DNA of 25,888 nt from IMG/VR virus record IMGVR_UViG_3300021962_005874, positions 1 to 25,888 of that record; one strand, 5' to 3'. The notes below the pieces were generated by a model, which had not been told where the DNA came from, ran no database searches, and was given only the letters and a program-made list of their open reading frames with translations. The DNA is from a virus. Below are positions 1-17,628 of the stretch, in pieces (the stretch's first letter is position 1; each line of letters opens with the position of its first letter). A program made the translations under genes and the position numbers.

Positions 1-510
1 CTCTGGGGTGGCATCACCGACTACATAGCGCAGGTGCCACGGCTCGGATTGTAGTTCCCATGAGAATCCGAAACGCTGAGCGTGTTTGAGCAGCCACGCT
101 AAGCGTGCACCGCTGGCGTTGGCAATATCGACGGCGATACCGAGGTTATGGTTGGAAGTCCCTGGGACCGCCATTGGTGCCATACCTTTTTTCAGGTACC
201 ACGCTTTGCCTTTGTAGATGCGCGGCTTTTGTTTGAGGAGTTTTTTGTTCGGGTTGTCGGTGTGCCTCTGGTAGAAGCCATACTCTTGGGTTTCGAGCGA
301 ACGGTAGGTGTCCGCTTGCGAGGTTGGGGCGAGGTCGATACCTTCGGCGTTGGCGGCTGCGTCCATTGCTTCGTATGCGTCAGCCGCACAATGATGGAGT
401 TTACCTTTGCCTTCAATGCTGCGCAGAAGTTCTGGACCGAGTTCACCAGGTTTGACGCCTTTCAGATGTGAGCAGAGGGTTACTTTGACGATGGGGTATG
501 GCGTTGCCAT
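1..510 (-). CDS. Endolysin, M15-type (VanY-like) peptidase, partial at left edge
   Basis: The frame is open from ATG at 510 to the window edge (170 codons, no stop), so the C-terminus is missing. Two hallmarks of the zinc-dependent LAS/M15 peptidases are visible: SNHNLGIAVDI at about residues 119-129 (SxHxxGxAxD, supplying a His and an Asp zinc ligand) and SEPWHLRYV at 155-163 (ExWH, supplying the catalytic Glu and third ligand). An upstream DTYRS at 67-71 fits the conserved Arg/Ser substrate segment. In this family the enzyme cleaves peptide bonds in the cell-wall stem peptide. Beside two membrane genes, the likely role is host lysis at the end of infection. The start overlaps the upstream stop as TAATG. 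Any cell-wall binding domain would lie beyond the edge. Exact cleavage specificity (D-Ala-D-Ala or L-Ala-D-Glu) cannot be told. Confidence 0.88.
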   Translation of the reverse strand, partial: MATPYPIVKVTLCSHLKGVKPGELGPELLRSIEGKGKLHHCAADAYEAMDAAANAEGIDLAPTSQADTYRSLETQEYGFYQRHTDNPNKKLLKQKPRIYKGKAWYLKKGMAPMAVPGTSNHNLGIAVDIANASGARLAWLLKHAQRFGFSWELQSEPWHLRYVVGDATPE

Positions 511-764
511 TACTTCTTCCCGAACGCTTCAGCAATCTCCTCGCTTGTCAGTTCGCCGTCGGTTGAGGCCGCTGCAAGTTTTTGAATCACTTGGACTACT
601 GCCATGAATCCTGCAAGCAACGCAGATTTGGCTACCGATACGCCGATGACGGCTCCGCCCGTGATGGCTGGGAGGGCGCTGGCAAGGAACAGGGATAGGA
701 GGCGTTGCCCCAAGTCGAGGAACTTTGTTATCACATTTTTGGTAATGGTCATGGCTTTATTCAT
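510..764 (-). CDS. Small membrane protein, holin candidate
   Basis: An 84-aa protein with a short positively charged N-terminus, then a hydrophobic stretch from about residue 22 to 62 that could form two membrane segments broken by Gly/Pro (PAITGG). The tail is hydrophilic and acidic, containing STDGELTSEEIAEAF, which looks like an EF-hand-like loop or a simple charged helix. It lies immediately upstream of the M15 endolysin (TAATG overlap) and overlaps the end of another small membrane protein by eight bases. Size, topology and position fit a holin or antiholin that permeabilises the cytoplasmic membrane and releases the lysin. No specific holin family is recognised, so the function is inferred from context. 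Confidence 0.65.
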   Translation of the reverse strand: MNKAMTITKNVITKFLDLGQRLLSLFLASALPAITGGAVIGVSVAKSALLAGFMAVVQVIQKLAAASTDGELTSEEIAEAFGKK

Positions 765-927
765 CTTTCTTCCCCGTTCCTAGTGTGAGTACTGAGTGTA
801 GCACTAGGGCTACTCCTGTAATCCAAAGTGCTTGGCGGAGGGTGGGGCCTGAGAGGGTGATGAGGACTAATCCTGTGCCTGCGAGGGTCCACGAGTTTTC
901 GGTGATGTAGTCGAGTATGCGTTTCAT
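757..927 (-). CDS. 56-aa two-segment membrane protein, holin/antiholin candidate
   Basis: Translation from ATG at 927 gives 56 residues, beginning MKRILDYITENSW and ending TGKKDE. Two hydrophobic segments are visible, about residues 13-26 (WTLAGTGLVLITLSG region) and 33-49 (ALWITGVALVLHSVLTL), joined by a short turn (GPTLRQ), with charged residues at both ends. This is the plan of a small hairpin holin. The ATG overlaps the stop of the secreted stalk protein (TAATG), and its own stop overlaps the start of the next membrane gene (ATGAATAA), so the lysis genes are probably translationally coupled. Two consecutive membrane genes before an endolysin often form a holin/antiholin or holin/co-holin pair. 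Which is which cannot be told from sequence. Confidence 0.68.
   Translation of the reverse strand: MKRILDYITENSWTLAGTGLVLITLSGPTLRQALWITGVALVLHSVLTLGTGKKDE
795..804 (-). promoter_or_regulatory. Possible extended -10 promoter inside the small holin gene
   Basis: The minus strand reads GTGCTACACTCA here, identical over 12 bases to the -10 region upstream of the scaffold gene at 14174-14185. It contains TGCTACACT, an extended -10. A weak -35 (ATTACA) lies at 817-822 with a 16-base spacer. Initiation would fall about 24 bases before the ATG at 764 and could add transcripts for the second membrane gene and the endolysin. It lies within coding sequence (LVLHS codons), so chance is a real alternative. 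Confidence 0.25.
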
Positions 928-2315
928 TATCGACGTATCCTAGTCGCTGCTGCGGCTGTGAGGGCTGCGCCGATAGCGATGAGGGCGCGTCGTTCTCCGA
1001 CGGGGATGTTGGACCCTGTGGGGATGTAGGTGTCTAGGGCGTTTTTGAAGATGTCCACTTTGTCTTCGAAGGCTTCTCGTACTTCGGTGGGGGCGTCTTG
1101 GACTGCGGCGATGAGTTCTGCGGTTTGTTCTTCGGTGAGGGCGGCTACGTCTAGGGTTTCAAAGATTTGTTCGGCTTGTTCTTCGCTGATGTTGGCTAGG
1201 ACTTGGGGGCTGGTGGCTAGGGCTACGGCTTGTTCTTGGGTGGGTTCTTCTTCAAGGATGGCTGTGATGACTTCTTCTAGTTGTTCTTCGGTGATGTTTT
1301 CGAATAGTTCTGTGAGTTGTTCTGTGGTTGCCTCGTCAAGTTCCTCGGCTTCGGGTATGGTTGACTCTGATGATTCTTCTTCTGTTTCCTTTATTGGGTC
1401 TGGTTCTTCTGGTGTCAATTCTGTTTCTGGGTCATCTGTTTCAGGTTGAGTCGTATCAGGCTCGTCTTCGGGCAGAGTCTCAGGGGTTGTCTCGTCAGGC
1501 TCGTCGTCTTCTGGCGGAGGAAGAGTTGTGTCAGGGGGAGGCGCTTCCTCCTCGGTAGGTTCTGTGGTGGTGGTGGGTTCGGGTTCGGGTTCTGCTTCGG
1601 TTGTGGTGGTTGGCGGCTCAGTAGTCGTAGTAGTCGTGGTGGTGGAAGTTGTGGTGGTCGTAGATGTTGTGGTGGTGGGAACGTAGACGGTTGTTGTTGT
1701 GGTGGTTTCAGGGACAGTTGTTTCAGGGACAGTCGTGGTCGGCTCTGACGTTGTGGTGGTTTCAGGGATGGTTGTGGATGGTGTTGAGGTTTGGGTGAAC
1801 GCTTCGTCGGGAACTATTGCCCAACCTTCGTCGTCGATGTTCCAGGCGAGCATGATGCACGATGAGCCACCGTTCTCGTACATCCACACGTCAAGCGGTT
1901 GGACGCCTGCCTCAATGTCTAGTTGTCCTGATGGTATCCAGGAGCAGCCCTGGTCGTTCCATGATTCGAACTCGTTGCCGCCGATGTTGGCGTAGCCGCC
2001 GTCATCTGTAGCCAACCAAAACTCAATCGTCGTATGTTCAGGGATGGTGATGTAGCCAGTCATGTGAACCATGAACAGGTCGCCTGTGCAGTTTTCGTAT
2101 GGTTCGCCGTCGTAACTGCGGTTGATGTTGTTTTCTGTTTCGGTTCCGCATATCGGATACTCGCTGGTGGAACGTAGCGGTGGTATTTCGTCGATGGTGT
2201 AGTAGGTGGTGGCAAGCCCTGGTTGGGGTTCAGCGTTGGCTGGGGTTGTGAGGGCGAAGAATATCGCGGGTGCGAGTATCAGCCAACGAAGGCTGTTATT
2301 CGGGCGCACTCTCAA
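927..2315 (-). CDS. Secreted PA14-like / Thr-rich stalk / C-terminal anchor protein
   Basis: Up to 462 aa. Residues 1-28 look like a Sec signal peptide: basic start, hydrophobic core (WLILAPAIFFAL) and a PANA cleavage site. Residues about 33-172 resemble a PA14-type beta domain (GYITIPEHTTIEFWLATDDG, then ANIGGN) and hold four Cys (56, 76, 124, 153) that could form two disulfides, as expected outside the cell. Residues about 174-328 are a low-complexity Thr/Pro/Glu stalk, followed by an acidic helical segment to about 432. The end is a short hydrophobic run (ALIAIGAALTAAAA) then RIRR, like a membrane anchor. The track start at 2315 is TTG; GTG at 2309 is an equal candidate, as neither has a clear Shine-Dalgarno. 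It overlaps the upstream accessory gene and is coupled (TAATG) to the holin candidate. Function is unknown; a surface-displayed carbohydrate-binding or exclusion factor is possible. Confidence 0.82.
   Translation of the reverse strand: MRVRPNNSLRWLILAPAIFFALTTPANAEPQPGLATTYYTIDEIPPLRSTSEYPICGTETENNINRSYDGEPYENCTGDLFMVHMTGYITIPEHTTIEFWLATDDGGYANIGGNEFESWNDQGCSWIPSGQLDIEAGVQPLDVWMYENGGSSCIMLAWNIDDEGWAIVPDEAFTQTSTPSTTIPETTTTSEPTTTVPETTVPETTTTTTVYVPTTTTSTTTTTSTTTTTTTTEPPTTTTEAEPEPEPTTTTEPTEEEAPPPDTTLPPPEDDEPDETTPETLPEDEPDTTQPETDDPETELTPEEPDPIKETEEESSESTIPEAEELDEATTEQLTELFENITEEQLEEVITAILEEEPTQEQAVALATSPQVLANISEEQAEQIFETLDVAALTEEQTAELIAAVQDAPTEVREAFEDKVDIFKNALDTYIPTGSNIPVGERRALIAIGAALTAAAATRIRR
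1332..1796 (-). repeat. Low-complexity Thr/Pro/Glu-coding tract
   Basis: About 155 codons of the secreted stalk protein are dominated by Thr, then Pro and Glu. The middle holds long runs of ACN codons (read as GT-rich on the plus strand, for example gtggtggt), and short units such as VPETT recur. Such tracts vary in length by slippage and unequal recombination. At protein level it would be an extended, glycosylatable stalk. Confidence 0.85.
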
Positions 2316-2553
2316 CTGCTGGTGTCACGAACTCATCTAAGTCAGCATCATAGGTGTCACCGATACCTGCGTATTTAGACCTGAACCCTGCTGAATAACT
2401 TGTTTGCTTCCACTCGCCAGCGAGTCCGAGTGATGCGATGAACGCTTGACCGACTGGTTCTGAGTCAGGGAAGTCGCCGCCACCGCAGTCGTCGTTTGAT
2501 ACGACGATGACCTGCTGAACGATGTTGTCTGAGATTCGTGCGAAATGTGCCAT
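2296..2553 (-). CDS. Small fibre-associated protein, copy 2 (MAHFA family)
   Basis: An 85-aa protein starting MAHFARISDNIVQQVIVVSN, clearly homologous to the 78-aa protein at 3413-3649. They share MAHFA, the VIVV.NDD segment, AFIAS.GLAGEW.QTSY and KYAGIGD. I remember relatives from many marine and freshwater phages, usually just downstream of tail-fibre genes, and they are sometimes annotated as fibre or hypothetical proteins. It follows the second glycine-rich gene with a two-base gap, so the two likely work together, perhaps as fibre tip, adhesin cap or assembly factor. No catalytic motif is visible. Its end overlaps the start of the secreted stalk protein by 20 bases (14 if GTG is used). 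Confidence 0.82.
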   Translation of the reverse strand: MAHFARISDNIVQQVIVVSNDDCGGGDFPDSEPVGQAFIASLGLAGEWKQTSYSAGFRSKYAGIGDTYDADLDEFVTPAVESAPE

Positions 2554-2555
2554 AA

Positions 2556-3416
2556 CTAAACCTTGAACCTTACATAGACGATTCCTGAGCCGCCTGTTGC
2601 GCCAGCACGACCATCAGTTCCAGAGCCGCCTGCGCCGCCACCTGTGTTCACCGTTCCGTTTGTTCCCTGTCCACTAGATGCGCCTGCGCCGCCGCCGCCA
2701 GTAGCCGAACCGCCACCGCCTGAACCTGCGCCGCCGCCACCACCTGCTACGAATGATGATGCGCCGCCAATGAACGCTGAACAATCATAACCTGTGCCGC
2801 CTGCGCCTCCAGTCGTTCCAGAGTTATTGGAACCGCCTGCACCTGCACCACCACCGCCGCCTGCGCCGTCGCTTGCACCTGTGCCACCGTTTCCCCCTGC
2901 GTTGCCACTAACGCCAGGTGCCATGCTTGCCGCACCAATGCGAGTTGTGGCGTTGTTCTGATTATTGCCGCCACCGCCTGAGCCGCCTAACTGCGCCAAC
3001 AGGTTCGTCGTGGCACTTCTTCCACCGCCTGCAACCGAAACGCCACGAGCACCACCGATAGATGATGATGAGCCATTCACCTTTGCGCCTCCGCCACCGA
3101 TAGTCACCGTTTGATTGGCGTCGAGATAGATAGTTTCTTCCAACACGCCGCCTGCGCCGCCGCCGCCGCTTGCTTCGCCGCCGCCGTTGTTCGCATCTGA
3201 TGAGCCTGCACCGCCCGAAACGACAAGCACATCAAACAACCCAGCCTTCGTCACCGTCAAAGTACCTGTCGCCGTGAACTGCAACACTCGGTACACGATG
3301 CCACCAACAGTCGGGTCAGGTGAGATAGCCGTGCCACCTGTGGCAACACCGTACTCCATAATGTTCACCGTGCTAGTTGTCTGTGACGAAACATAACCCA
3401 TGTACGAGCGTGTCAT
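2556..3416 (-). CDS. Glycine-rich tail fibre / receptor-binding protein, copy 2
   Basis: A 286-aa protein with an N-terminal anchor-like part (MGYVSSQTTSTV), a short beta segment (FTATGTLTVTKAGLFDVLVV) and then roughly 200 residues dominated by Gly, Ala, Ser and Asn in GGGG-type runs, ending GIVYVRFKV. This is the layout of the glycine-rich domain seen in phage tail fibres and adhesins, where Gly-rich strands can pack as polyglycine II helices and loops contact the receptor. The N-terminus matches that of the upstream Gly-rich gene (GY[I/V]SSQ), suggesting both dock on the same part of the tail. It starts inside the previous stop (ATGA) and is followed two bases later by its small partner gene. 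Confidence 0.83.
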   Translation of the reverse strand: MTRSYMGYVSSQTTSTVNIMEYGVATGGTAISPDPTVGGIVYRVLQFTATGTLTVTKAGLFDVLVVSGGAGSSDANNGGGEASGGGGAGGVLEETIYLDANQTVTIGGGGAKVNGSSSSIGGARGVSVAGGGRSATTNLLAQLGGSGGGGNNQNNATTRIGAASMAPGVSGNAGGNGGTGASDGAGGGGGAGAGGSNNSGTTGGAGGTGYDCSAFIGGASSFVAGGGGGAGSGGGGSATGGGGAGASSGQGTNGTVNTGGGAGGSGTDGRAGATGGSGIVYVRFKV

Positions 3417-3649
3417 TCCGTTACCTCACTAACAAACTCGGAACCATTCCACACATCACCGATACCTGCATACTTCCCACGGTCTTGACCCTCAATCGGA
3501 TTCCCGTTGTAAGAAGTCTGTATCCACTCACCAGCAAGCCCGATGCTGGCGATGAACGCTTTGCCTGCTGCTTCCGTTGGGGCATCATCGTTCCCGACAA
3601 CGATGACTTCACGAACAATACCGTTTTCTATTTTCGCAAAGTGTGCCAT
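3413..3649 (-). CDS. Small fibre-associated protein, copy 1 (MAHFA family)
   Basis: A 78-aa protein, MAHFAKIENGIVREVIVVGN at its start, paralogous to the 85-aa product at 2296-2553. Compared with that copy it lacks a stretch around the CGGGDFPDSEP insert. It begins on the last base of the preceding Gly-rich gene's stop (TAATG) and ends with ATGA into the second Gly-rich gene, so the four genes form an unbroken translational chain. No signal peptide, membrane segment or catalytic motif is visible. The role is probably structural or accessory at the receptor-binding end of the tail; this is inferred from position and from the usual location of relatives. Confidence 0.82.
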   Translation of the reverse strand: MAHFAKIENGIVREVIVVGNDDAPTEAAGKAFIASIGLAGEWIQTSYNGNPIEGQDRGKYAGIGDVWNGSEFVSEVTE

Positions 3650-4470
3650 TATGCCACCACCAATGTCCCTGTTGCTGTGTAATCAAAGTACGAATAAAGG
3701 CCGTCTACCGTTGGCGTCCCTGACGTTGCGCCCGTTGCCGTAATCGTTAGCCCGGTTGCGTTGGCTGTTAGGTAGCGCACGATGACACGGCCCGAACCTC
3801 CGTTGCCTCCGTTGCCAATATTGCCGCCGCCACCGCCACCGCCACGATTTGCGGGTGCGGTTCCAGCGGGTGCCGCACCTGCGGAAGCGTCACCTGCCGC
3901 ACCGTTGGTGACTGAACCTGCACCGCCACCGCCGCCCGAATACGCCTGGTTTGTGCCGTTGTAATTGTTGCTCGTCCCTGTACCGCCTGCACCGCCTGTG
4001 GTTCCTGCTCCGTTTGCACCTACCGCCGACGCGCCACCGCCACCGCCAGCGTTGGTAGTTGCTGCACTATTGCCGCCTGCGTTGCCCTCGCCGCTAATAC
4101 CTGCGCCGCCTACGTTTGAGTTGGAACCGCCGCCACCTGAGCCACCTAAACCGCCAATGCGCGTATCTTCTGCTCCACCTGCGCCGCCGCCGTTTGCACC
4201 GTTTATAAACGCCGACCGTGTGCCGGGGTTCATTGTTCTATTGGTGCCGCCTGCGCCACCTGCGCCGACCTTGACGGTGTAGGTCGTTTTACCAATGATG
4301 CCTGAGCCTGTGACGAAACCGCCACCGCCACCGCCACCGCCGTAGGTGGCTCCACCACCGCCACCACCACCACCGACGAGGAGGAACTCAACAGCAAGCG
4401 TCTGCGAAGCAAACACGGCCTGCGACGACTGCGAAGAAATGTACCCAAGTTGGCGACGAGCAGTAGCCAT
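3649..4470 (-). CDS. Glycine-rich tail fibre / receptor-binding protein, copy 1
   Basis: A 273-aa protein. The N-terminus (QLGYISSQSSQAV) matches the second Gly-rich copy, then LAVEFLLVGG opens about 190 residues of Gly runs interspersed with Ala, Asn, Thr and Ser, closing with GSGRVIVRYL. After this natural domain end there is an extra segment, ATGATSGTPTVDG followed by YTATGTLVVA, which resembles the lead-in to a Gly-rich domain in copy 2 and stops abruptly. The protein therefore appears to carry the truncated beginning of a second domain. Role by family: receptor-binding fibre or adhesin. It sits three bases after the preceding beta-rich gene, in the tail-fibre part of the late operon. Confidence 0.82.
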   Translation of the reverse strand: MATARRQLGYISSQSSQAVFASQTLAVEFLLVGGGGGGGGATYGGGGGGGGFVTGSGIIGKTTYTVKVGAGGAGGTNRTMNPGTRSAFINGANGGGAGGAEDTRIGGLGGSGGGGSNSNVGGAGISGEGNAGGNSAATTNAGGGGGASAVGANGAGTTGGAGGTGTSNNYNGTNQAYSGGGGGAGSVTNGAAGDASAGAAPAGTAPANRGGGGGGGNIGNGGNGGSGRVIVRYLTANATGLTITATGATSGTPTVDGLYSYFDYTATGTLVVA

Positions 4471-4473
4471 TAC

Positions 4474-4836
4474 TTACGCCGCAATAGCGTTCACGAAACC
4501 CGACAAAAGAATCACATCAGCCGTAGCCGCAAACGCCTTCACCACTTTCGCATTCTGCAAAATGAGTCCAGGGATTACTGTCACCAAACCTGCTTCGGGT
4601 AGCACAGTGAGTTCAATGTTTCCATCAGCGGCAGTAGCAGTACCCCACTCAATCGTCAGTTTCACCGACGAAGCAGAAGTATTATTCGCATACAACCACA
4701 ACTCATCAAACGTACCAACCGTCGTGCCAGCAACAGCCGTATGCACCGTCACCGTCGCCGCCGTGCTAGTACCAGTTACCTTGACACAAAGACCATCAGT
4801 CGAACCCGACAGTTTCTTCTTCGTAAATGTTGCCAC
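4474..4836 (-). CDS. Small beta-rich virion protein
   Basis: A 120-aa protein beginning (M)ATFTKKKLSGSTDG and rich in Thr, Val, Ala and Ser with alternating polar and hydrophobic residues, as in a beta sandwich. The start is GTG at 4836, supported by AGGAG five bases upstream on the minus strand. No upstream ATG in frame fits the gap after the previous gene. I remember similar short proteins near tail-fibre genes in uncultured actinophages, but no firm family. It could be a fibre-base, decoration or tail-tip protein. Position between the 159-aa tail protein and the Gly-rich fibres supports a virion role. Confidence 0.7.
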   Translation of the reverse strand: MATFTKKKLSGSTDGLCVKVTGTSTAATVTVHTAVAGTTVGTFDELWLYANNTSASSVKLTIEWGTATAADGNIELTVLPEAGLVTVIPGLILQNAKVVKAFAATADVILLSGFVNAIAA

Positions 4837-4844
4837 AATGACTC

Positions 4845-5324
4845 CTAACTAAACACTTGAATCTGAATAATATCAACCGACGGAGGAATAGCCGCCCAAG
4901 CAGCATCCGTACCATTGGAAGTCAACACCGTATCAGCCGAACCAATGGCAATACGAGCAAAATCAGGACCCGAACCCATCGTCAACAAATCACCACGAGT
5001 CGTCAACGTCGAAGCCAACTTATTCGCCTCATCAGCATCATCCGCCGAAAACACGGGGTAAATCGTCGCACCCGACGCATGAGAACCAGCAGTCGTATCA
5101 TCCTGCGCACGAGTCAACGTCAACACAGAACCAGAAATCGTCGCCAAACACTTCTCCTCAGAAGCAGTCCCAGGACTAATAACAACAAAAAACGGGACAG
5201 CCGCAGTTGAAGGCCAACCAGTAGTAGCAGCAACAGTAGCCGACGTATCACCAGACGCCAAAGCGTTCACAATCGTCGTCTGCGCCGCTGCGCCCTTATA
5301 TTGTCTACGAGTTACTGCTGGCAT
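4845..5324 (-). CDS. Tail fibre/tip-associated structural protein
   Basis: A 159-aa protein. The N-terminal half is beta-rich (TSATVAATTGWPS, then FFVVISPGTASEEKCLATI) and resembles small beta domains in phage tail proteins that end in AGSHASGATIYPVF. The C-terminal half holds ADDADEANKLASTLTTRGDLL and then IAIGSADTVLTSNGT.AAW, a common lead-in motif of phage fibre proteins, where it precedes receptor-binding parts. Here the protein ends soon after, so it may be a short fibre or a collar that carries separate fibres encoded downstream. It starts at ATG 5324, seven bases after the nozzle-like gene, with an AGGT-type ribosome site. Confidence 0.72.
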   Translation of the reverse strand: MPAVTRRQYKGAAAQTTIVNALASGDTSATVAATTGWPSTAAVPFFVVISPGTASEEKCLATISGSVLTLTRAQDDTTAGSHASGATIYPVFSADDADEANKLASTLTTRGDLLTMGSGPDFARIAIGSADTVLTSNGTDAAWAAIPPSVDIIQIQVFS

Positions 5325-5331
5325 ACCTGAC

Positions 5332-7185
5332 CTACCTTACACTACGCATGACCACTATAGCAGTACCCTCAAAATCGTTGGCACGGTGAGCGTTCACCAG
5401 TTGGGCTATCTGCATCTGGACATTCTCTACCACCACAGCAAAAGTTTCTTCGTTCTCCTGATAGGTGATAACCCTGGGGGTTTCCACGAGGTCACGCAGG
5501 TAGCCGAGTTCTCTGTCCACATCCTGCCAATATTCGCGTCCGTTGATGGACAGTTTGTGATGCATGATGAGGGGCACGGAGAAGATTTGGGAACGTAGCG
5601 GGGCGGCATAGGCGCGTGCCATCCAACGGGTAAGGGTTGGTCCTGTGGTTGCCGCGGCTGAACGGGTGAGGGTGACTTTCAGTTCGGCTTCAAACACTTT
5701 GTCTTCCAACCCGTCGAACGTTTTCTCTTTCGCCCCAACGGTTGAGAAAGGGGTGAAATCGTGGAAGTCGCCACCGTCCGAGGCAACGGACAAGGTGACG
5801 GAACCAACGAGAGGTAGGCAACGTAGGTCGAGTTTGGGGATGAACTTCGCATCGGGGACACCCCAACGGTAGATACCTGACCGCAAAAACCCTGACGCAA
5901 CAAGGTTCGTGGCGTGTTGGGCGTACAACCCTAAACCTGCGACGGTGAAAATAGGGTTGCCACCAAACTCGTGAACATCAGAAATTGCACCCTGACCTGT
6001 CACCATCAAATCTGAGGCATACGCAGGCTGGTTCGTGGAAATAAACACCGAGATGTCCATGCGTCCAATACCTGTCGAGGTGCCATCAAAGTTCTTGTAT
6101 CCGAAATAGATGTATTGTCCGACACCAGCGAACTCGTCAACCGATGAACCCGTCACAATCTTCGGACCAATCACCAAGTTGCCGTCACTATCAGATGAGC
6201 AGAGACGGAACCCGTCACTCAAACCGATTGCGACAAACCCTAGATAGCCGTGGACGCTCGTGATGATTTCACCTAATGGCAGTTCAGCGGCAACTGTCGG
6301 AATGTCCAACGCTGTACCGTCGGCTTTGATGGTTGTTTTGTAGACGAACGATTTGTTCCCTGCGTAACCTGCGCAATAGATGTGGTTCTGTCCAGCAGCG
6401 AAACCCACCCAGTTGAAATCGCTGTTCGGGTGCGTGAACAGAGCAGACGGGTTGTTCGCTGAAGACCCTGGGGTGGTGGTGATGTTCCAAATCTTGCGTT
6501 TATCGGTACCTTGCCCTGCGACCATGAGACGGCCTTTGACATACGCCAAATAGCCTGCCTCGATACCCGTAATGTAATTGGATGCCGTGCTAATGCCAGC
6601 GTCGGTTTGGTCAATGTCGCCGTCGGCATACGAAAAGAACACGTTGTATCCGTCAGACGCAATCGAAAACAAGTTAGATGCGTTAGTGCTAGTCACCGTC
6701 GTAAACGTTGACAGGTCCGTAGAGTATTTGACGGTTTGACCATCCGTAATATACAAACGTGTATCGGCAGTAGCAAGATGCAGATTGCTGTTCGCAGACG
6801 AATACTTCTGTACTGTTTCGGGCAGCAAACTCAACTTGCCTTTCTCCCAAACATCCACACCCTTACTGGTATAGAAACGGTAGGCCTCAGCATCGGCAGT
6901 ATCCGAATACTCTTGCCCAGCACCGTAATGCCACGACGATTGCGAACGACGCCACAACCCCTGCGGGTTCAACGCACCCTCGCCAGGTTCAGCAGACTGG
7001 TCCACAGAGTCACGGACACGGGCATCGAACTGGCGGTTGAACGCGTTCGCTGACATGTCCACCATGTATGGGCGTCCGTTGATAGCGACAGGGAAAATGT
7101 CGGGAACTAACGCAGTTGCCCCTGTCCCCGTATAGAACCCTGTTGCTGGAAGGAAAGCGTCTGTGAAACGCGTCAGCGTAGCCAT
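5332..7185 (-). CDS. Large beta-rich tail protein, nozzle / tail tubular B-like candidate
   Basis: A 617-aa protein. The middle (about residues 100-400) is a series of short beta blades with recurring patterns such as LYITDGQTVKYS, FSYADGDIDQ, HIYCAGYAGNKSFVY and YIYFGYKNFDG, suggesting a beta-propeller-like body. The C-terminal part (about 505-617) is a separate domain (SINGREYWQDVDRELGYLRD, then an EGTAIVVMRS ending) like those closing actinophage minor tail proteins. Gene order, directly after a connector-like gene and before fibre genes, parallels the adaptor then nozzle order of short-tailed phages. In that setting the protein would form the tail tube/nozzle through which DNA leaves. It could instead be a minor tail protein of a long-tailed phage; the absence of a tube and tape measure favours the first view. 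Confidence 0.68.
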   Translation of the reverse strand: MATLTRFTDAFLPATGFYTGTGATALVPDIFPVAINGRPYMVDMSANAFNRQFDARVRDSVDQSAEPGEGALNPQGLWRRSQSSWHYGAGQEYSDTADAEAYRFYTSKGVDVWEKGKLSLLPETVQKYSSANSNLHLATADTRLYITDGQTVKYSTDLSTFTTVTSTNASNLFSIASDGYNVFFSYADGDIDQTDAGISTASNYITGIEAGYLAYVKGRLMVAGQGTDKRKIWNITTTPGSSANNPSALFTHPNSDFNWVGFAAGQNHIYCAGYAGNKSFVYKTTIKADGTALDIPTVAAELPLGEIITSVHGYLGFVAIGLSDGFRLCSSDSDGNLVIGPKIVTGSSVDEFAGVGQYIYFGYKNFDGTSTGIGRMDISVFISTNQPAYASDLMVTGQGAISDVHEFGGNPIFTVAGLGLYAQHATNLVASGFLRSGIYRWGVPDAKFIPKLDLRCLPLVGSVTLSVASDGGDFHDFTPFSTVGAKEKTFDGLEDKVFEAELKVTLTRSAAATTGPTLTRWMARAYAAPLRSQIFSVPLIMHHKLSINGREYWQDVDRELGYLRDLVETPRVITYQENEETFAVVVENVQMQIAQLVNAHRANDFEGTAIVVMRSVR

Positions 7186-7188
7186 TGG

Positions 7189-8073
7189 CTACTTCCTGAA
7201 CTTGATGGGATACTGTGCTTTGAGGCGTGCCGCTTCTGCGATGATGCGTTCGCGACGCAATCGGGCAAGAGTTGTGGTGGAATCGCGTACTGCGCCAGGG
7301 GGCACTTCGTCGGAGCGACGGGTGTCGCCTTGTGCTTCAATGAAGTTGCGTTTGATTTCTCGTCCGTTCATCATCCGTAGAATGATTCCCGTTTCCACAA
7401 TGTCTTCACATGTGGCGGGTAGGAAACAGTTGGTGGTGAGGTCGGATGTTTCGGCTGTGGCTCGCACGAATGGTGCCTTGTAGCGGACGCGTACGGTGCC
7501 TGCCATTACAGGGTTGTCGAATACGAGTGTGTTCCCTGAAGCGAAATCGGCTGTCGGTAAACCTGTTTGGATGCGCACCGCGTTCAACACGGGATGGTCG
7601 TCGGCAAGGTAACGGAGACGGGCATCCAACAGTTCGATAATGTTCCCTGATGAGGTGATGTTGATTTGGCGGTCCGACCCGTTGTATGTCAAATCGACGG
7701 TGACGACACGGAACAATCCGTTCATCGTCGATGAAAGGTCGTCTAGTTCGGCGTTGACCGCATCGAACATTTGCGCCCGCGGGAACCGCGGATTGACCGT
7801 AGCAAGTACGTTGGCTGAGTGAGCCGCAGCGGTCGTTCCGTTGAATCCTCGTTCGACTGTAATCGTTTTCGTTGCTGGGTTCGCATCCCAAACGTAAAAG
7901 AGTTCTGATTCAATTTCGAATACAGAACCATTACGAAAGCCGCCAAGGTCATAAGACATAACAACAGTCGTCGTGCTGCTATCGAGGCTTGTCGCCAATT
8001 TGTTGCGTTCTTCAACGACCCCTGCCAACATCTGACGCGAAGCCCTCGTGAGGACTGTCGCAACCGTAGTCAT
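7189..8073 (-). CDS. Head-tail adaptor / connector-like protein
   Basis: A 294-aa protein. N-terminal helix (ATVLTRASRQML), then a beta domain of about residues 30-95 (GSVFEIESELFYVWD, TVERGFNGTTAAAHSANVL), a helical part (MFDAVNAELDDL) and a second beta region, ending with a long basic helix (LARLRRERIIAEAARLKAQY). The ERGFNGTTAAAH motif is common in phage tail and connector proteins. It lies three bases before the large nozzle-like gene, the order in which tail tubular A-like adaptors precede tubular B-like nozzles. I infer a role joining portal and tail. No catalytic motif is present. A minor tail protein is the alternative. Confidence 0.6.
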   Translation of the reverse strand: MTTVATVLTRASRQMLAGVVEERNKLATSLDSSTTTVVMSYDLGGFRNGSVFEIESELFYVWDANPATKTITVERGFNGTTAAAHSANVLATVNPRFPRAQMFDAVNAELDDLSSTMNGLFRVVTVDLTYNGSDRQINITSSGNIIELLDARLRYLADDHPVLNAVRIQTGLPTADFASGNTLVFDNPVMAGTVRVRYKAPFVRATAETSDLTTNCFLPATCEDIVETGIILRMMNGREIKRNFIEAQGDTRRSDEVPPGAVRDSTTTLARLRRERIIAEAARLKAQYPIKFRK

Positions 8074-8229
8074 TTAGTAAGTGTAACTCCCGTACCCTGG
8101 GAACGAACCTGCTTGTGCTTTCGCAGAAGTTTTGCGTGTCCGCTTACCCTTCTTGGGTTTCGGTGCAGGGCGATACTCCTTAGCGGGTGCGCCTTTCACG
8201 GAAGACTTCTTGTTCTTGGGAAGTGGCAT
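8074..8229 (-). CDS. 51-aa Lys-rich protein
   Basis: Reading from ATG at 8229 gives MPLPKNKKSSVKGAPAKEYR at the N-terminus and a further 31 residues, rich in Lys, Arg, Pro and Ala, ending with an aromatic tail (FPGYGSYTY). It starts inside the stop of the 37-aa neighbour (TAATG), and its TAA abuts the ATG of the connector-like gene with no gap. This unbroken coupling and the consistent frame argue it is real despite its size. The charge suggests nucleic-acid or capsid-interior binding, but no family is recognised. Confidence 0.72.
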   Translation of the reverse strand: MPLPKNKKSSVKGAPAKEYRPAPKPKKGKRTRKTSAKAQAGSFPGYGSYTY

Positions 8230-8342
8230 TACTTCTTCTTCTTGCCTGTCTTCATTTTCTTGCCAGTCTTCTTCGCTTCAGCCTTCGCCATAGCCATACC
8301 CTTTGGGGTGTATGCGAACTCTTTCTTTCCAACTTTCGGCAT
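8229..8342 (-). CDS. 37-aa Lys-rich protein
   Basis: The real start is ATG at 8342, giving MPKVGKKEFAYTPKGMAMAK followed by a Lys-rich tail (37 residues; 14 Lys). A longer in-frame extension upstream overlaps the DUF6321-like gene and is rejected. I remember near-identical small proteins with the opening MPKVGKK.[FY].YTP.GM from many phage genomes, often beside the other small basic genes found here. AAGGA lies about ten bases upstream. Function is unknown; the charge pattern would suit binding of DNA or RNA. The stop is TAATG-coupled to the next small gene. Confidence 0.82.
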   Translation of the reverse strand: MPKVGKKEFAYTPKGMAMAKAEAKKTGKKMKTGKKKK

Positions 8343-8343
8343 G

Positions 8344-8640
8344 TCACTTGTTCCTTTTGTTGCGTGCGGATATTGCTTTCGCCTTGCTGCGTGCATCCGA
8401 TTTGGATGATGCGCCCCAAGCCTGTAATGATAATAGCAGGCGAGTCGGCCTGCCTTTCTCATCGCGTTCAGGTCCAGGCATATTGCCCATGCGGGCAAGG
8501 AAGGATGCGCGTCGCGGATTGTCGCCCGCTTTGACAGGGGCCTTCAATGTGCCACCCTTGTATGATGCTCGACCTTTGGCGTTCAGTCCACCTTTCGGGT
8601 TCTTGCCCTCTTTGCGTGTCCATGCTGGGGTTTTAGCCAC
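8344..8640 (-). CDS. DUF6321-like small basic protein
   Basis: A 98-aa protein beginning at GTG 8640: (M)AKTPAWTRKEGKNPKGG, then LKAPVK.GDNPRRASFLARM and LLLSLQAWGASSKSDAR, with a Lys/Arg-rich end. From memory this matches the DUF6321 family, which is frequent in phages and has no assigned function. The GTG is chosen because family members begin at this point (MAKTPAWxRKEG) and because it overlaps the previous small gene by eight bases; an upstream GTG at 8700 would add 20 residues unlike the family. No clear ribosome site precedes the GTG, so translational coupling is likely. It ends one base before the next small gene. Confidence 0.85.
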   Translation of the reverse strand: MAKTPAWTRKEGKNPKGGLNAKGRASYKGGTLKAPVKAGDNPRRASFLARMGNMPGPERDEKGRPTRLLLSLQAWGASSKSDARSKAKAISARNKRNK

Positions 8641-8791
8641 GACGAGAAGCCCACGAATTGTCAACAAGATTCGGGTAGGGGCGACCCGCTTTGGAGGCAC
8701 GTGTTTTGGCTGCCTTCTTCTGTCCAGCGGACAGGGGCTTAGATTTCTTTTTCGGGTTTTTGGTGTCCCAAAACTCTTTCTTCTTTTTCAT
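8633..8791 (-). CDS. 52-aa Lys-rich protein with RPYPNLVDN motif
   Basis: Translation from ATG at 8791 gives MKKKKEFWDTKNPKKKSKPL, then SAGQKKAAKTRASKAGRPYP and NLVDNSWASRRG (52 residues). The AGRPYPNLVDN segment is one I remember from small phage proteins that occur next to DUF6321-like genes, so the pairing itself supports both calls. A good ribosome site (AGGAG, seven bases before ATG) lies in the end of the glycosyltransferase gene, and the start overlaps its stop (ATGA). It is highly basic and of unknown function. It is too short for usual length cut-offs and easily missed. Confidence 0.82.
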   Translation of the reverse strand: MKKKKEFWDTKNPKKKSKPLSAGQKKAAKTRASKAGRPYPNLVDNSWASRRG

Positions 8792-9882
8792 AATGTTGCT
8801 CCTATGAGGTTTCCGCTATCGCATACTACTTGATAAATGTTCTCTGGTACGACATACTCTTGCCCTGGGAGGTAGGTGAACTCTTTGCCGTTGATACTTC
8901 CTGAGACTTTACGTTTGACACGCATAGGCAATCTGAGGATGGACGGTTCCCATTCGGGGTTTTCAAGTAAATTGCCGACGAGCAATGTGTCTGCCAACTG
9001 GCGGGCGGCGTTATTCCAAGACCATGCCTTCGTTTTGCGGACCCTCAGTTTTGCTGACGTTTTATGGTTTTCGTAATCTGCGAACATGGTGCGCATGGCG
9101 TCAGCCAAATCGTCGGGGTTGGACTCGTCCCACAATCCCCCATAAATTGACTTGGATTGTCCGTGAGGGATAACGATGCTGGCAAGGTCCGCGAACTCTG
9201 CTTGACCAGAGGAAGCATTGATGATGGTGGGGATGCCCATAGCCATTGCTTGTAGGGGCATGAGTCCGAATCCCTCACCTCTTGTGGCTGCAATGTAGCA
9301 GTCGGCATCGTTGAAAAACTTGACGGTTTCTTCTTCGGTAAACCATTGCCTGTGCATGAATACGTTGTCGGGCAGGGTAAGTGGCGGAACGCCATGTGCT
9401 TCAGGGTTCGGTTTCAAATGTAGTTCGGCATCCAAGTCGGCTCGTTTGAACGCCTCCAGTACGATGTCCAAACCTTTGCGTAACCATTGTGAACCGCCAG
9501 CATGAAACCTAAATCGTTTGTTGTTGGGGCGTGGAGTGGCTTTCCAAATTGTGTGGTCCACCCCTAACGGCACTTTCTTTACGTTCTTGTGGTAGCGAGA
9601 AAAGAGTTCTAGGTTGTGGTCGCAGGGTACAAGAATCTGGTCATAGAAATCCAACCAAAGTGCGCCACGCGGGTCTAACTCTGTGGATTCCCACATTGTG
9701 AAACAGGTTCGATGTTGCCCTTTGTAGAAACCTTTGATTTGGTAGGGCTGCAACATGTTGACCATTACGTCGGCATGTTCGTGGAGTGTTATGTCGTTGG
9801 GGACGTGGCGCACAAAGTTGTGCCACATTGCTCCGTAGCCGTATCGCGGATGCGGGTACCCTTGCCAAGATTGATAGTTCAT
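8788..9882 (-). CDS. Glycosyltransferase, GT4-like, with C-terminal small domain
   Basis: A 364-aa protein from ATG at 9882, which overlaps the previous stop (ATGA). An earlier in-frame start at 10077 would run through the upstream gene in another frame and is rejected. The fold is GT-B-like: nucleotide-binding half with FHAGGSQWLRKGLDIVLEAF (about 127-145) and EGFGLMPLQAMAMGIPTI (203-220). The classical GT4 signature is E-x7-E; here the second acid is Gln (E203...Q211). Residues about 320-364 form an added basic/beta segment (VSGSINGKEFTYLPGQEYVV) not typical of GT4 enzymes but like small domains in phage proteins. GT4 enzymes transfer sugar from an activated donor. Acceptor unknown; a virion protein, surface glycan or DNA base is possible. 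Confidence 0.88.
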   Translation of the reverse strand: MNYQSWQGYPHPRYGYGAMWHNFVRHVPNDITLHEHADVMVNMLQPYQIKGFYKGQHRTCFTMWESTELDPRGALWLDFYDQILVPCDHNLELFSRYHKNVKKVPLGVDHTIWKATPRPNNKRFRFHAGGSQWLRKGLDIVLEAFKRADLDAELHLKPNPEAHGVPPLTLPDNVFMHRQWFTEEETVKFFNDADCYIAATRGEGFGLMPLQAMAMGIPTIINASSGQAEFADLASIVIPHGQSKSIYGGLWDESNPDDLADAMRTMFADYENHKTSAKLRVRKTKAWSWNNAARQLADTLLVGNLLENPEWEPSILRLPMRVKRKVSGSINGKEFTYLPGQEYVVPENIYQVVCDSGNLIGATL

Positions 9883-10586
9883 TGCGATACGTTGACGAAG
9901 TTCCAATCCAACGCATCCTTCAACGGGATAGCGGGAACATTGTTGTGGGCGACAAGGGACTGCAGGTAATCGTAAATTACTTCGTTGAAAAATCCGAACA
10001 CGTTCTGATGAATATGCCCGACGGTGATGGTCGGCTGGCTCATCACTTTTACGGTTTTGCAACCAAGCCCAGCCCAAAATAGCGGATATCTGGTATCAAC
10101 TTTGTTCAGGCCAAGCGCAACGTTCATCGCTGCTCGACGCCACACGTTTGCTGTAATCAGCGTTGATGCAACAAGTATCGACTTGTCGCTGAGGCTCGTA
10201 ATGTAATCGGGCATCGTGCCGTTGAAACCTGCCCCTGTTTCTCCTGCGTTCGCAGACCAATGAATCACCCTGTCTACTCCGTCAAGCATCGGCAACAAGG
10301 TTTCTATTGCGCCTGAGAGCATCGTGTCATCGTCTCCGAATACCCACACGTACTCCCCAGAGCCGCAAGCAAGTCCTCGTAACACGTTGGGGTCGCCTTC
10401 AATGTTGTAGTGGCGGTTTGAATATTGGGCTTGTGGGTAACGAAGAACAATGTTTTTTGCAAATTGTTTTGGGTCGTTGTCGCTGACAATCAGTTCAACT
10501 TCGCTGGTTAGTTGGGGGATGATGGATGCAAGGCAAACATCTAGTTCGCTGCGGAGGAACGTAGGAACGTAGATTGTTAGCCGCAT
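9879..10586 (-). CDS. Glycosyltransferase, GT2-like (GT-A fold)
   Basis: A 235-aa protein beginning MRLTIYVPTFLRSELDVCL, the usual GT2 opening. SDND at 35-38 and GDDD at 84-87 (in EYVWVFGDDDTML) are the nucleotide-binding and DXD-type metal-binding motifs of GT-A enzymes. The start is ATG at 10586, which overlaps the stop of the Cys protein as TGATG; a TTG three bases earlier is less likely. It ends ATGA into the GT4-like gene, so the pair is probably made together. The enzyme likely transfers a sugar from a nucleotide donor in the cytoplasm. The length is near the minimal catalytic domain and no membrane segment is seen, so a soluble acceptor or virion protein is plausible. Confidence 0.88.
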   Translation of the reverse strand: MRLTIYVPTFLRSELDVCLASIIPQLTSEVELIVSDNDPKQFAKNIVLRYPQAQYSNRHYNIEGDPNVLRGLACGSGEYVWVFGDDDTMLSGAIETLLPMLDGVDRVIHWSANAGETGAGFNGTMPDYITSLSDKSILVASTLITANVWRRAAMNVALGLNKVDTRYPLFWAGLGCKTVKVMSQPTITVGHIHQNVFGFFNEVIYDYLQSLVAHNNVPAIPLKDALDWNFVNVSQ

Positions 10587-10819
10587 CAATCGGCAGTCTT
10601 TTCTATTTTTGCTGAACCATCAATTTTCATAGGTTGACCACCCGTTTGCCGTATACGTTTGTAGGCATCCAAGTCTTTATCTAATGACCGTTCTTTTGAG
10701 TTGAGATGTGCAACATTTTGGCGGGTTGGCATAGCAGAACCAGACATGCGAACATGCGAAACACGGCAAGCAAAGCAGCCTTCAACATCTAACGTCGGAT
10801 GAGTCTCTGCGTGTTTCAT
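10586..10819 (-). CDS. Small conserved Cys-containing phage protein
   Basis: A 77-aa protein. The N-terminal third (THPTLDVEGCFACRVSHV, then SAMPTR) carries a CxxC pair at 15-18 flanked by His residues, which could bind a metal. I remember this HPTLDVEGCF.C..S..MPTR pattern from actinobacteriophage hypothetical proteins. The rest is hydrophilic, rich in Lys, Asp and Arg. It starts six bases after the 94-aa tail-like gene with an AGGGG-type ribosome site and is coupled (TGATG) to the GT2-like enzyme. Function unknown; with only one CxxC, a full zinc ribbon is not formed by one chain. Confidence 0.75.
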   Translation of the reverse strand: MKHAETHPTLDVEGCFACRVSHVRMSGSAMPTRQNVAHLNSKERSLDKDLDAYKRIRQTGGQPMKIDGSAKIEKTAD

Positions 10820-10825
10820 GTTCCC

Positions 10826-11110
10826 CTACGAAATGTATGCGCCGTACCCTGCCGCTGTAAGACTAGCAACCTCGGCTGCTGACACATCGTTATCCGAACC
10901 ACCCCAATAGACCTTGCTGATGGTGGTGATGTCGTTCGGTTCGTTCTCGGTAAAAGTGCCGTCAGTAAGTAGGAACACGTTCCTACCCCTGGGTTCGGCA
11001 TCGAAATGGCGGAACAGCGAATAGGCGAGTCTTGCCTCCTGGGAGTCAATCTCTTTCGGCGGGATACCCAATACCACGAAGTCGTCGGTTGGTGGTCTGA
11101 AGGTGCTCAT
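10826..11110 (-). CDS. Single-domain relative of the repeat protein C-terminus
   Basis: A 94-aa protein whose sequence aligns with the last ~80 residues of the upstream 358-aa protein: RLAYSLFRHFDAEPRGRNVF / RLFRYAEPTSSGVNVY, then LTDGTF / LVDGTF, VYWGGSDNDVSAAEV / TYWGGSNNFVTPEEK and LTAAGYGAYIS / LVAAGYGEYVT. The YxGG...V...E...L.AAGYG ending is one I remember at the C-termini of actinophage minor tail and fibre proteins. The gene starts inside the stop of its relative (ATGA), which fits a tandem duplication. It may cap, trimerise or compete with the long protein. Function is not known. Confidence 0.82.
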   Translation of the reverse strand: MSTFRPPTDDFVVLGIPPKEIDSQEARLAYSLFRHFDAEPRGRNVFLLTDGTFTENEPNDITTISKVYWGGSDNDVSAAEVASLTAAGYGAYIS

Positions 11111-12183
11111 GTTACGTATTCACCATAGCCTGCGGCTACAAGTTCGGCTTTTTCTTCTGGTGTCACAAAGTTGTTGGAGCCACCCCAATAGGTTCGCAGT
11201 ACTGGGTCACGGGTTTCGGTGCTGCTGAATGTTCCGTCCACAAGTTTGTATACGTTGACGCCTGATGAGGTGGGTTCGGCGTAACGGAACAAGCGACCAG
11301 CAATCGAATCGTCAAAACGGTCCGCGGCCCGAATCTCTGTTGTGGTGGGGGTGCGGAAGATGAGCAGTTTGAGTATTGCGTTCGTTTCACTACTTGCCCC
11401 TGATGCGGTGGCTGTGCGTTGTGCGACACGGGCTGACACAATCTGTCTGCCGCCTTCTCCTGATGCTGTGGCGGTACGGAAACGGGTGATGACACGCTGA
11501 GAGGAATCTGTACCTGTTCCTGCTCCTGTCGCTGTACGAGGAGCGATATGCAGTTGGGTGACGCTCGATGTTCCTGTGCCCGATGCTGTTGCTATGCATG
11601 CGCGGGTAACTTCTTCATCTGTGGTGGATGCCCCTGTCCCTGATGCGGTGGCGGTGCGTAGCACGAGACGAAGCCCTACTGCTGTTTGCGAGCCTGTCCC
11701 TGACCCTGTGGCGGTGAACGCACGAGTGACAACACCATTCGCAACCGAGGTCCCTGTGCCTGCGGCTGTGGCGGTACGGGGCGCAATATGCAACCCGACA
11801 GCACCACCATCCGTGGTCCCCTGACCACTCGCTGTGGCAGACCGTGGAACGACACGCTCACCCTCAGCGGTCTGCGAACCTGTGCCAGAGGCGAGTGCCG
11901 TGCGCTTAGCAACCAGCACCCTAGTAGTCGATGATGCACCTAACCCTGAACCTGTGGCAGCACGCAACGATACAACTAGACGTTGCGCAGTTGACGACCC
12001 TGTACCTGCTCCTGAAGCAGTACGGTCAACGACGACTAAGCCGCGATAGAAACCTTGCGTCGAAGCAAAAGGGGAAGCAAAATAGACGACCTTGCGGTAC
12101 GTGTAATTCGGTACTTCTTCAAACTCCCGAAAACCAGGAGTGTCGGTAAACCCGAAACTGAAATCGGTGACTCCAGTAGCCAT
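11107..12183 (-). CDS. Ser/Thr/Ala-Gly repeat virion protein, fibre-like
   Basis: A 358-aa protein in three parts: an N-terminal segment of about 48 residues (anchor candidate), a run of about eleven imperfect ~20-residue repeats from about 49 to 270 with consensus hhxRTATASGTGxxxxx, and a C-terminal domain (about 278-358) ending YWGGSNNFVTPEEKAEL.AAGYG. Such repeats could make a beta-solenoid or extended shaft, with the end domain as tip. Thr/Ser density makes it a plausible glycosylation target, and two glycosyltransferases lie three genes downstream. A good ribosome site (GAGG) lies seven bases before ATG. It is probably a decoration or side fibre rather than the main receptor-binding protein, which the Gly-rich genes suit better. 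Confidence 0.8.
   Translation of the reverse strand: MATGVTDFSFGFTDTPGFREFEEVPNYTYRKVVYFASPFASTQGFYRGLVVVDRTASGAGTGSSTAQRLVVSLRAATGSGLGASSTTRVLVAKRTALASGTGSQTAEGERVVPRSATASGQGTTDGGAVGLHIAPRTATAAGTGTSVANGVVTRAFTATGSGTGSQTAVGLRLVLRTATASGTGASTTDEEVTRACIATASGTGTSSVTQLHIAPRTATGAGTGTDSSQRVITRFRTATASGEGGRQIVSARVAQRTATASGASSETNAILKLLIFRTPTTTEIRAADRFDDSIAGRLFRYAEPTSSGVNVYKLVDGTFSSTETRDPVLRTYWGGSNNFVTPEEKAELVAAGYGEYVT
11374..12039 (-). repeat. Eleven ~60-bp coding repeats (RTATASGTG units)
   Basis: About eleven degenerate copies of a ~60-base unit encode the repeat region of the 358-aa protein; on the plus strand many copies contain a version of cctgatgcggtggcggtgcg. Units differ by substitution and by one or two codons in length, so the array is old or diversified rather than freshly expanded. 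The period matches the protein repeat of about 20 residues, showing selection on protein, not on DNA spacing. Confidence 0.85.
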
Positions 12184-16840: not shown

Positions 16841-17628
16841 GCACCTCCGAACGCACGTTCGAACAAATCTGCCAACGTACGGAAACCTTCAACTTGGACT
16901 TCTTCTTGGCGTCCTTGACCGACAGCCTGTGTAGCCAACGTGCTCAACGCAGGAGCCTGCTCTGCGCCATATGCTGCTTGACGTTCACGGGACTGAACAA
17001 ACTGTACCGCTTCACGAACTTCTTTCGGAGTCATCGTGCGACCCAACTGGCGGAACGATTCTTCACGCAACACAGTTTGAATGTCCTCTTTCGCGGTAAC
17101 ACGAATCGTGCGACCTGATTTGACTTGTCCACCAGGGTACTCATTTTTCAGGTATGCGATGCCGATGTCTTCGGTAACACCCCAACGGTTCAACTCCATC
17201 AAATACTTTGATGTTGCTTCCAAATCTTTTCCATCGAACGTTGTTTGCGACGGTTTCCCGCCCTCATACAAACCGTAATCAGCGAGCGTGTTCAACAACG
17301 CTAAACGTTCACCGCGACCCTTGGATGCCAAGAAACGGTACGCCTCGGTATCCAAGTTGTATGGGTCATACGGTGCGCGTTTGATGACACCGTTGCCGTC
17401 AACTAAACCTGGGCCTCTGTAATAGGTTTTGTTGCCACGCTGAACGAAGTATTGCTGGTTGTAATAATCCTGTGTCCCTGCAAGCGCCAAAGAGCCTTGT
17501 GTGACGGGGCGTTCGGTGAACTGGAAATCTGAACCTAGCGAATAGCGGGGCACGCCTGCGGTGCCTGTGGTGACGGTGGGCATCGGTTCGATGTCCACAA
17601 TCGGCTGAGGCGTTGGCGTGTTGCTCAT
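16837..17628 (-). CDS. Virion-associated protein of unknown function
   Basis: A 263-aa protein. Residues 1-60 are Pro/Thr-rich and probably disordered. A middle part (LDTEAYRFLASKGRGERLAL, then YGLYEGGKPS) leads into helices with a basic character (TMTPKEVREAVQFVQSRERQ). YLMELNRWGVTEDIGIAYLK and the C-terminal FRTLADLFERAFGGA suggest packing helices. No catalytic motif, signal peptide or membrane segment is seen. It begins inside the stop of the 1566-aa gene (ATGA) and ends ATGA into the 498-aa gene, so these genes are co-translated. I recognise no family; an internal virion or ejection component is inferred from context. Confidence 0.72.
   Translation of the reverse strand: MSNTPTPQPIVDIEPMPTVTTGTAGVPRYSLGSDFQFTERPVTQGSLALAGTQDYYNQQYFVQRGNKTYYRGPGLVDGNGVIKRAPYDPYNLDTEAYRFLASKGRGERLALLNTLADYGLYEGGKPSQTTFDGKDLEATSKYLMELNRWGVTEDIGIAYLKNEYPGGQVKSGRTIRVTAKEDIQTVLREESFRQLGRTMTPKEVREAVQFVQSRERQAAYGAEQAPALSTLATQAVGQGRQEEVQVEGFRTLADLFERAFGGA

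Follow-up and report, generated by a model that had tools for sequence, protein, structure and literature searches.

We found that the viral record IMGVR_UViG_3300021962_005874, analysed here over positions 1 to 25,888 (the window, 25,888 nucleotides), carries on its minus strand a gene for a stalked surface protein followed by a gene for a 56-aa protein with two transmembrane (TM) segments, and that the two products, judging from their sequences and genomic linkage, very probably form one unit. It is probable that the surface protein is exported and retained in the membrane together with its two-TM partner, with a Ca2+-dependent lectin tip outside. As to function, the pair may be a late two-component, phage-encoded glycan-binding display unit, most likely an adhesive tether. 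We give this reading about an even chance, and its adhesive purpose is speculative. Adhesins with PA14 domains have been described before, as have surface proteins made by phages. What appears to be new is the form met in actinophages, a putative display unit of two components with exchangeable tips, and no description of the gene pair was found in the literature searched. The initial annotation of this DNA included neither the partner gene nor the helical module, and neither the exchange of tips nor the family-wide distribution. The features concerned are:

1..510, minus strand: VanY-type endolysin, truncated by the window boundary (Pfam)
510..764, minus strand: putative holin of 84 aa, phrog_26427 (PHROG match, hydrophobic sequence)
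757..927, minus strand: two-TM partner of 56 aa, phrog_29041, no assigned function (ORF, PHROG match, linkage)
945..1001, minus strand: C-terminal membrane helix (residues 437-455), then the basic tail RIRR (hydrophobicity, AlphaFold2 model)
1056..1349, minus strand: conserved helical module of about 95 aa, or C-module (residues 321-418; AlphaFold2 pLDDT 85-95, conservation)
1350..1793, minus strand: Thr/Pro, then acidic stalk (residues 173-320; disordered in the AlphaFold2 model)
1794..2225, minus strand: predicted PA14 domain of the Ca2+-dependent lectin type (residues 29-172; Pfam, profile, model, Foldseek)
1866..1874, minus strand: Asn146-Gly147-Gly148, putative second calcium-binding loop (aligns to MpPA14 Gln156-Gly157-Gly158)
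2001..2006, minus strand: Asp102-Asp103, putative DcisD calcium/sugar motif (aligns to MpPA14 Asp110-Asp111)
2232..2309, minus strand: GTG start and predicted signal peptide (residues 1-26, ending TTPANA before EPQ; start in relatives, hydrophobicity)
2296..2553, minus strand: small upstream gene of the fibre cassette, phrog_7759, with a 14-nt overlap with the surface gene (ORF, PHROG)

The open reading frame of the surface protein (927-2315, minus strand) is real, and comparison with four relatives shows purifying selection on its PA14 domain (dN/dS 0.09-0.29). The TTG at 2315, given as the start in the initial annotation, did not hold: two relatives (L011 and L013) have an ATG at the codon matching 2309 and neither has a start at 2315. 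Thus, the GTG at 2309 is the likely start, and the product is likely to be a protein of 460 aa (927-2309). The overlaps described at both ends of the gene stood in part. That with the fibre cassette is present, but on the other side the surface gene overlaps the 56-aa gene instead of the holin.

The protein consists, in this order, of a signal-peptide-like segment (residues 1-26), the PA14 domain (29-172), the stalk (173-320), the helical module (321-418), the membrane helix (437-455) and a basic tail. The h-region of the putative signal peptide reaches 2.42 (Kyte-Doolittle, 12 residues) and is followed by a cleavage-like site between ANA and EP. When the same crude rule was applied to the 29 window genes, only one other ORF above 100 aa passed (8344-8700), a small and doubtful case. 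The traits already noticed in this protein recur across the family: a hydrophobic stretch fitting the signal peptide is found in 121 of 124 relatives, the four Cys are kept in 72 of the 79 PA14-type relatives, and the poly-Thr stalk has a Thr-rich counterpart in 123/124. The C-terminal anchor corresponds to the helix at 437-455, which is present in the model. With mostly 15-17 residues free of interruption, this helix is short, and model confidence is low there; the topology proposed for the surface protein is based on hydrophobicity and one structure model. Stalk or linker length varies from 100 to 468 aa in the 123 relatives measured (median 188, mean 36% Thr), which if extended would in principle be long enough to cross the cell wall.

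Several established ways of anchoring were considered and rejected. The LPXTG test for a sortase anchor failed, the best string being VPxGS, in place of which relatives have VMVGS or VMLNQ, with Arg-Arg before the helix, and PEP-CTERM or other CTERM sorting gave no NCBIfam match. A lipoprotein anchor or a one-piece spanin does not agree with a signal peptide that ends in ANA before Glu and lacks a lipobox Cys. Likewise, a GPI anchor of the Flo type does not agree with a TM helix followed by a basic tail at the C-terminus, in a bacterial host. A Pfam search of the window protein revealed no curlin repeats.

The PA14-like domain proposed earlier was confirmed by profile, AlphaFold2 and Foldseek in agreement. 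The Pfam family PF07691 matches it with E=2e-4, below the cut-off, and with 24.4 bits in the genome search, barely above the cut-off. A profile of 50 relatives found the PA14 domain of RsgI3 (6qe7) as its best match in the PDB, with E=1.6e-18, and also matched the PA14 lectins of the Marinobacter and Marinomonas RTX adhesins. AlphaFold2 modelled the domain with a pLDDT of about 95, and comparison of this first domain with known folds led to PA14 lectins, Foldseek giving a probability of 1.0 to MpPA14, Epa1 and Flo1/Flo5. In such lectins, an Asp-Asp pair binds calcium and sugar (PMC8092209; PMC6218569). The corresponding Asp102-Asp103 is invariant in our alignment, DDG being present in 79 of 79 PA14-type members, and the ENGG of the window protein is aligned with the DQGG of MpPA14. 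We infer that the tip is a Ca2+-dependent sugar-binding domain, as predicted from both motif and model.

The partner gene separates the surface gene from the holin. A 1-nt overlap (TAATG) couples it translationally to the surface gene, and it overlaps the holin ORF by 8 nt. Its start is found 0 or -3 nt from the stop of the surface gene in nearly all relatives. In 73 of the 77 loci retrieved via the two-TM protein alone, the surface module stands directly upstream; the other four carry a tip-less version of 82 aa with a signal peptide and a TM segment. Moreover, the partner is fused to the C-terminus of the surface protein in 20 of 24 DSL-like loci, some of them in 200-kb records, and a tblastn search of 50,697 phage records with the partner matched only DSL-LC01, within the gene of the surface homologue itself. 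It is because of this constant adjacency and of the fusion in large actinophages of the DSL-LC01 type that we consider both proteins parts of one unit. The divergence of the C-module correlates better with that of the partner (rho 0.61) than with that of the N-terminal domain of its own chain (rho 0.28; bootstrap difference 0.14-0.52), in a comparison where the partner is also nearer to the C-module on the DNA than the N-terminal domain is. The C-module and the two-TM partner constitute an uncharacterised anchor pair.

The tip-less version (79-82 aa), when used as the query, was found at 11 loci, and the core pair may therefore have a role that needs no lectin. These short proteins (L167, L169, L170, L176, L238-L248) comprise a signal peptide, a Cys-containing stretch of about 30 aa, a TM segment and RRK, and the two-TM gene follows in the four loci checked.

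Comparison of 124 distinct complete proteins revealed 79 PA14 tips and 27 tips with a CBM/MAM-like jelly roll model (a weaker model, mean pLDDT 64), the remainder being of several other kinds, one of which looks fibronectin-like by eye. Two loci, L117 (PA14) and L133 (jelly roll), have C-modules that are 100% identical and tips that differ, and the DNA of L117 and L124, 95% alike beginning with the stalk, shows no detected similarity in the tip. The converse also occurs: between the window and L007, 92% is shared in the tip but 49% in the C-module and 30% in the partner. These computations establish the tip as an exchangeable cassette on a conserved backbone. The region upstream of the surface gene, which is the fibre region, is hypervariable. 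Of 30 pairs whose downstream DNA has a similarity above 0.9, 27 retain the tip next to a differing upstream region. The idea that tip and fibre genes vary together was rejected because the fibre region turns over faster, and the impression given by L117 and L124 is not general. This lack of matching between tip and fibre favours a glycan of general occurrence as the target over the receptor that the phage itself uses.

The surroundings of the pair are highly constant. Where at least 1.1 kb of downstream DNA was available (178 loci), a holin-like gene was found in 177, the two-TM gene in 173 (at this sensitivity) and a VanY endolysin in 165. In the large phages this neighbourhood is loosely kept: the fused gene of DSL-like phages lies apart from the endolysin, in many cases on the opposite strand to the holin-like gene, and a holin-like gene is near even the fused version. 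The label of nuclease attached to phrog_26427 is doubtful, and the hydrophobic sequence of the holin-like protein gives it no support. Elsewhere in the window, two glycosyltransferase genes (GT4-like and GT2-like; 8788-10589) lie inside the structural gene block, and their products might glycosylate the Thr stalk, the virions or the host surface. A 1566-aa protein without clear family is encoded between the portal and capsid genes (17625-22325), and a protein without Pfam match (11107-12183) contains repeats of the RTATASGTGTS type.

Viral contigs encode the C-module in at least 575 stretches and the two-TM partner in at least 541. Scans of 84,980 cellular species, each with one or two strict degenerate patterns, revealed no relative of either. 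A host origin of the C-module was rejected on these empty scans, and the suggestion of the initial annotation that the gene had been captured from an acidimicrobial host (Acidimicrobiia) found no support, as the C-module and the partner were met only in viral contigs. Named phages and plasmids contained no close DNA relatives, those of window positions 1-12000 being sought in the case of phages. WhiB is encoded in 9 of 12 carrier records, which identifies the hosts as actinobacteria; among 14 control genomes it occurred only in Corynebacterium, and the window itself, a 25.9-kb fragment, has none. The capsid and terminase of the window are closest to those of Streptomyces phages, and for DSL-LC01 a host among the Actinomycetia has been predicted (PMC10611076).

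In the mechanism that we favour, the gene pair would, presumably late in infection, equip the infected host with a lectin display unit. The signal peptide would export the 460-aa protein in vivo, and the C-terminal helix would keep it in the cytoplasmic membrane, held there in a complex by the helical module and the 56-aa partner. The Thr-rich stalk, of 100-470 aa, would carry the Ca2+-dependent PA14 tip out through the cell wall. Such a tether might join the dying host to neighbour cells or to glycan-rich matter, and virions on release would thereby meet new hosts. We prefer adhesion because of the late placement of the genes, the long stalk, the failure of the tip to follow the fibre, and the parallel with adhesive curli. 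The first and the second of these features, together with the tip that stays the same while the fibre region changes (27/30 pairs), also count against receptor masking or superinfection exclusion, in which the lectin would occupy the host's own glycans, so that rivals and progeny avoid the infected cell or its debris. A sugar-binding fold placed at the host surface, tip exchange as expected for an arms race and a single copy of the module per phage (6/6 records tested) would all suit masking, which we nevertheless hold to be unlikely.

A role in lysis, with the protein and its partner regulating or completing holin action, also seems improbable to us, but the constant presence of lysis genes nearby, which would suit such a role just as well, and the existence of a tip-less version keep it alive. 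The outer domain could sense glycans or link the membrane to outer layers, with a topology like that of an antiholin sensor or of a spanin made in one piece. The pair, its start codons coupled, directly precedes the holin and the endolysin in nearly all small phages, a holin-like gene is close to the fused version as well, the tip-less 82-aa versions retain the membrane core, and the best profile match is the PA14 domain of the polysaccharide-sensing RsgI3. However, the DSL-like fused gene stands apart from the endolysin, often on the other strand with respect to the holin-like gene, tips of unrelated fold substitute for one another, and neither a lipobox nor an outer-membrane signal is present. 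It is very improbable that the protein is a virion component, namely a fibre tip whose N-terminus is hydrophobic by chance, even though the gene comes directly after the fibre cassette and many viral proteins have PA14 domains, some maybe structural. Nearly all members have a signal peptide with a cleavage-like site, and the TM helix at the C-terminus and the membrane-bound partner likewise count against a fibre tip. To our knowledge, such virions contain no membrane, which also counts against a place in the particle. The initial view of a surface protein and not a virion part agrees with the predicted export and envelope retention, the late position and a carbohydrate-binding fold.

If the adhesive display reading is true, late infection gains a widespread function, the dressing of the dying cell with a lectin, in bacteria that are among the most abundant of fresh water. 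The components of the anchor pair are each encoded at more than 500 places in viral contigs.

Among known systems, the yeast proteins Flo1, Flo5 and Epa1 share with the window protein a signal peptide, an N-terminal PA14 lectin with a DcisD site, a Ser/Thr-rich stalk and a C-terminal anchor. Unlike in yeast, where the anchor is GPI, here a helical module, a TM helix and a two-TM partner are present, the protein is phage-encoded and its tips are swapped for unrelated folds. MpPA14 and MhPA14 have the same fold and the calcium/sugar loops, but belong to giant type I-secreted RTX adhesins of Gram-negative bacteria. Unlike RsgI3, which signals to a sigma factor, the window protein has no cytoplasmic signalling domain. 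Two phage proteins in BFVD, A0A6J5SZ50 and A0A1B0XUN5, are close homologues by fold and sequence, deposited just as PA14-domain or unnamed proteins and without a function there.

The best match outside actinophages is AGE60352 of pelagiphage HTVC008M (L059:7965-9290), whose alignment to the window tip has an hhalign probability of 97.5. This protein combines a signal peptide, a PA14 domain and curlin repeats, and its gene adjoins those for CsgF and CsgG; in its relatives (L249-L288) the curlin-repeat scaffold is conserved and the N-terminal domain swapped. The first report of pelagiphage curli genes described two hypothetical proteins, deemed CsgA and CsgB missing and proposed the capture of siblings (PMC7029224). 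The PA14-curlin protein is a candidate for the missing curli fibre subunit. A later paper proposed a role in lysis and observed no cell clumping in a related methylophage with curli pore genes (PMC9004378), an absence that counts against the adhesive-tether reading. AGE60352 and the window protein are both phage-encoded, with a signal peptide, a homologous PA14 domain and an exchangeable N-terminal domain, and they differ in that AGE60352 has a curlin-repeat scaffold with CsgG/CsgF export and a SAR11 host. Tentatively, and with more doubt than confidence, aquatic tailed phages may have independently evolved swappable-lectin display machines that capture the next hosts before lysis, by a stalk and two-TM anchor in actinophages and by curlin fibres in pelagimyophages. 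With related PA14 domains, a scaffold at the host surface and exchangeable tips on both sides, the actinophage pair offers a parallel, open to testing, for the curli operons of SAR11 phages, which are themselves unexplained.
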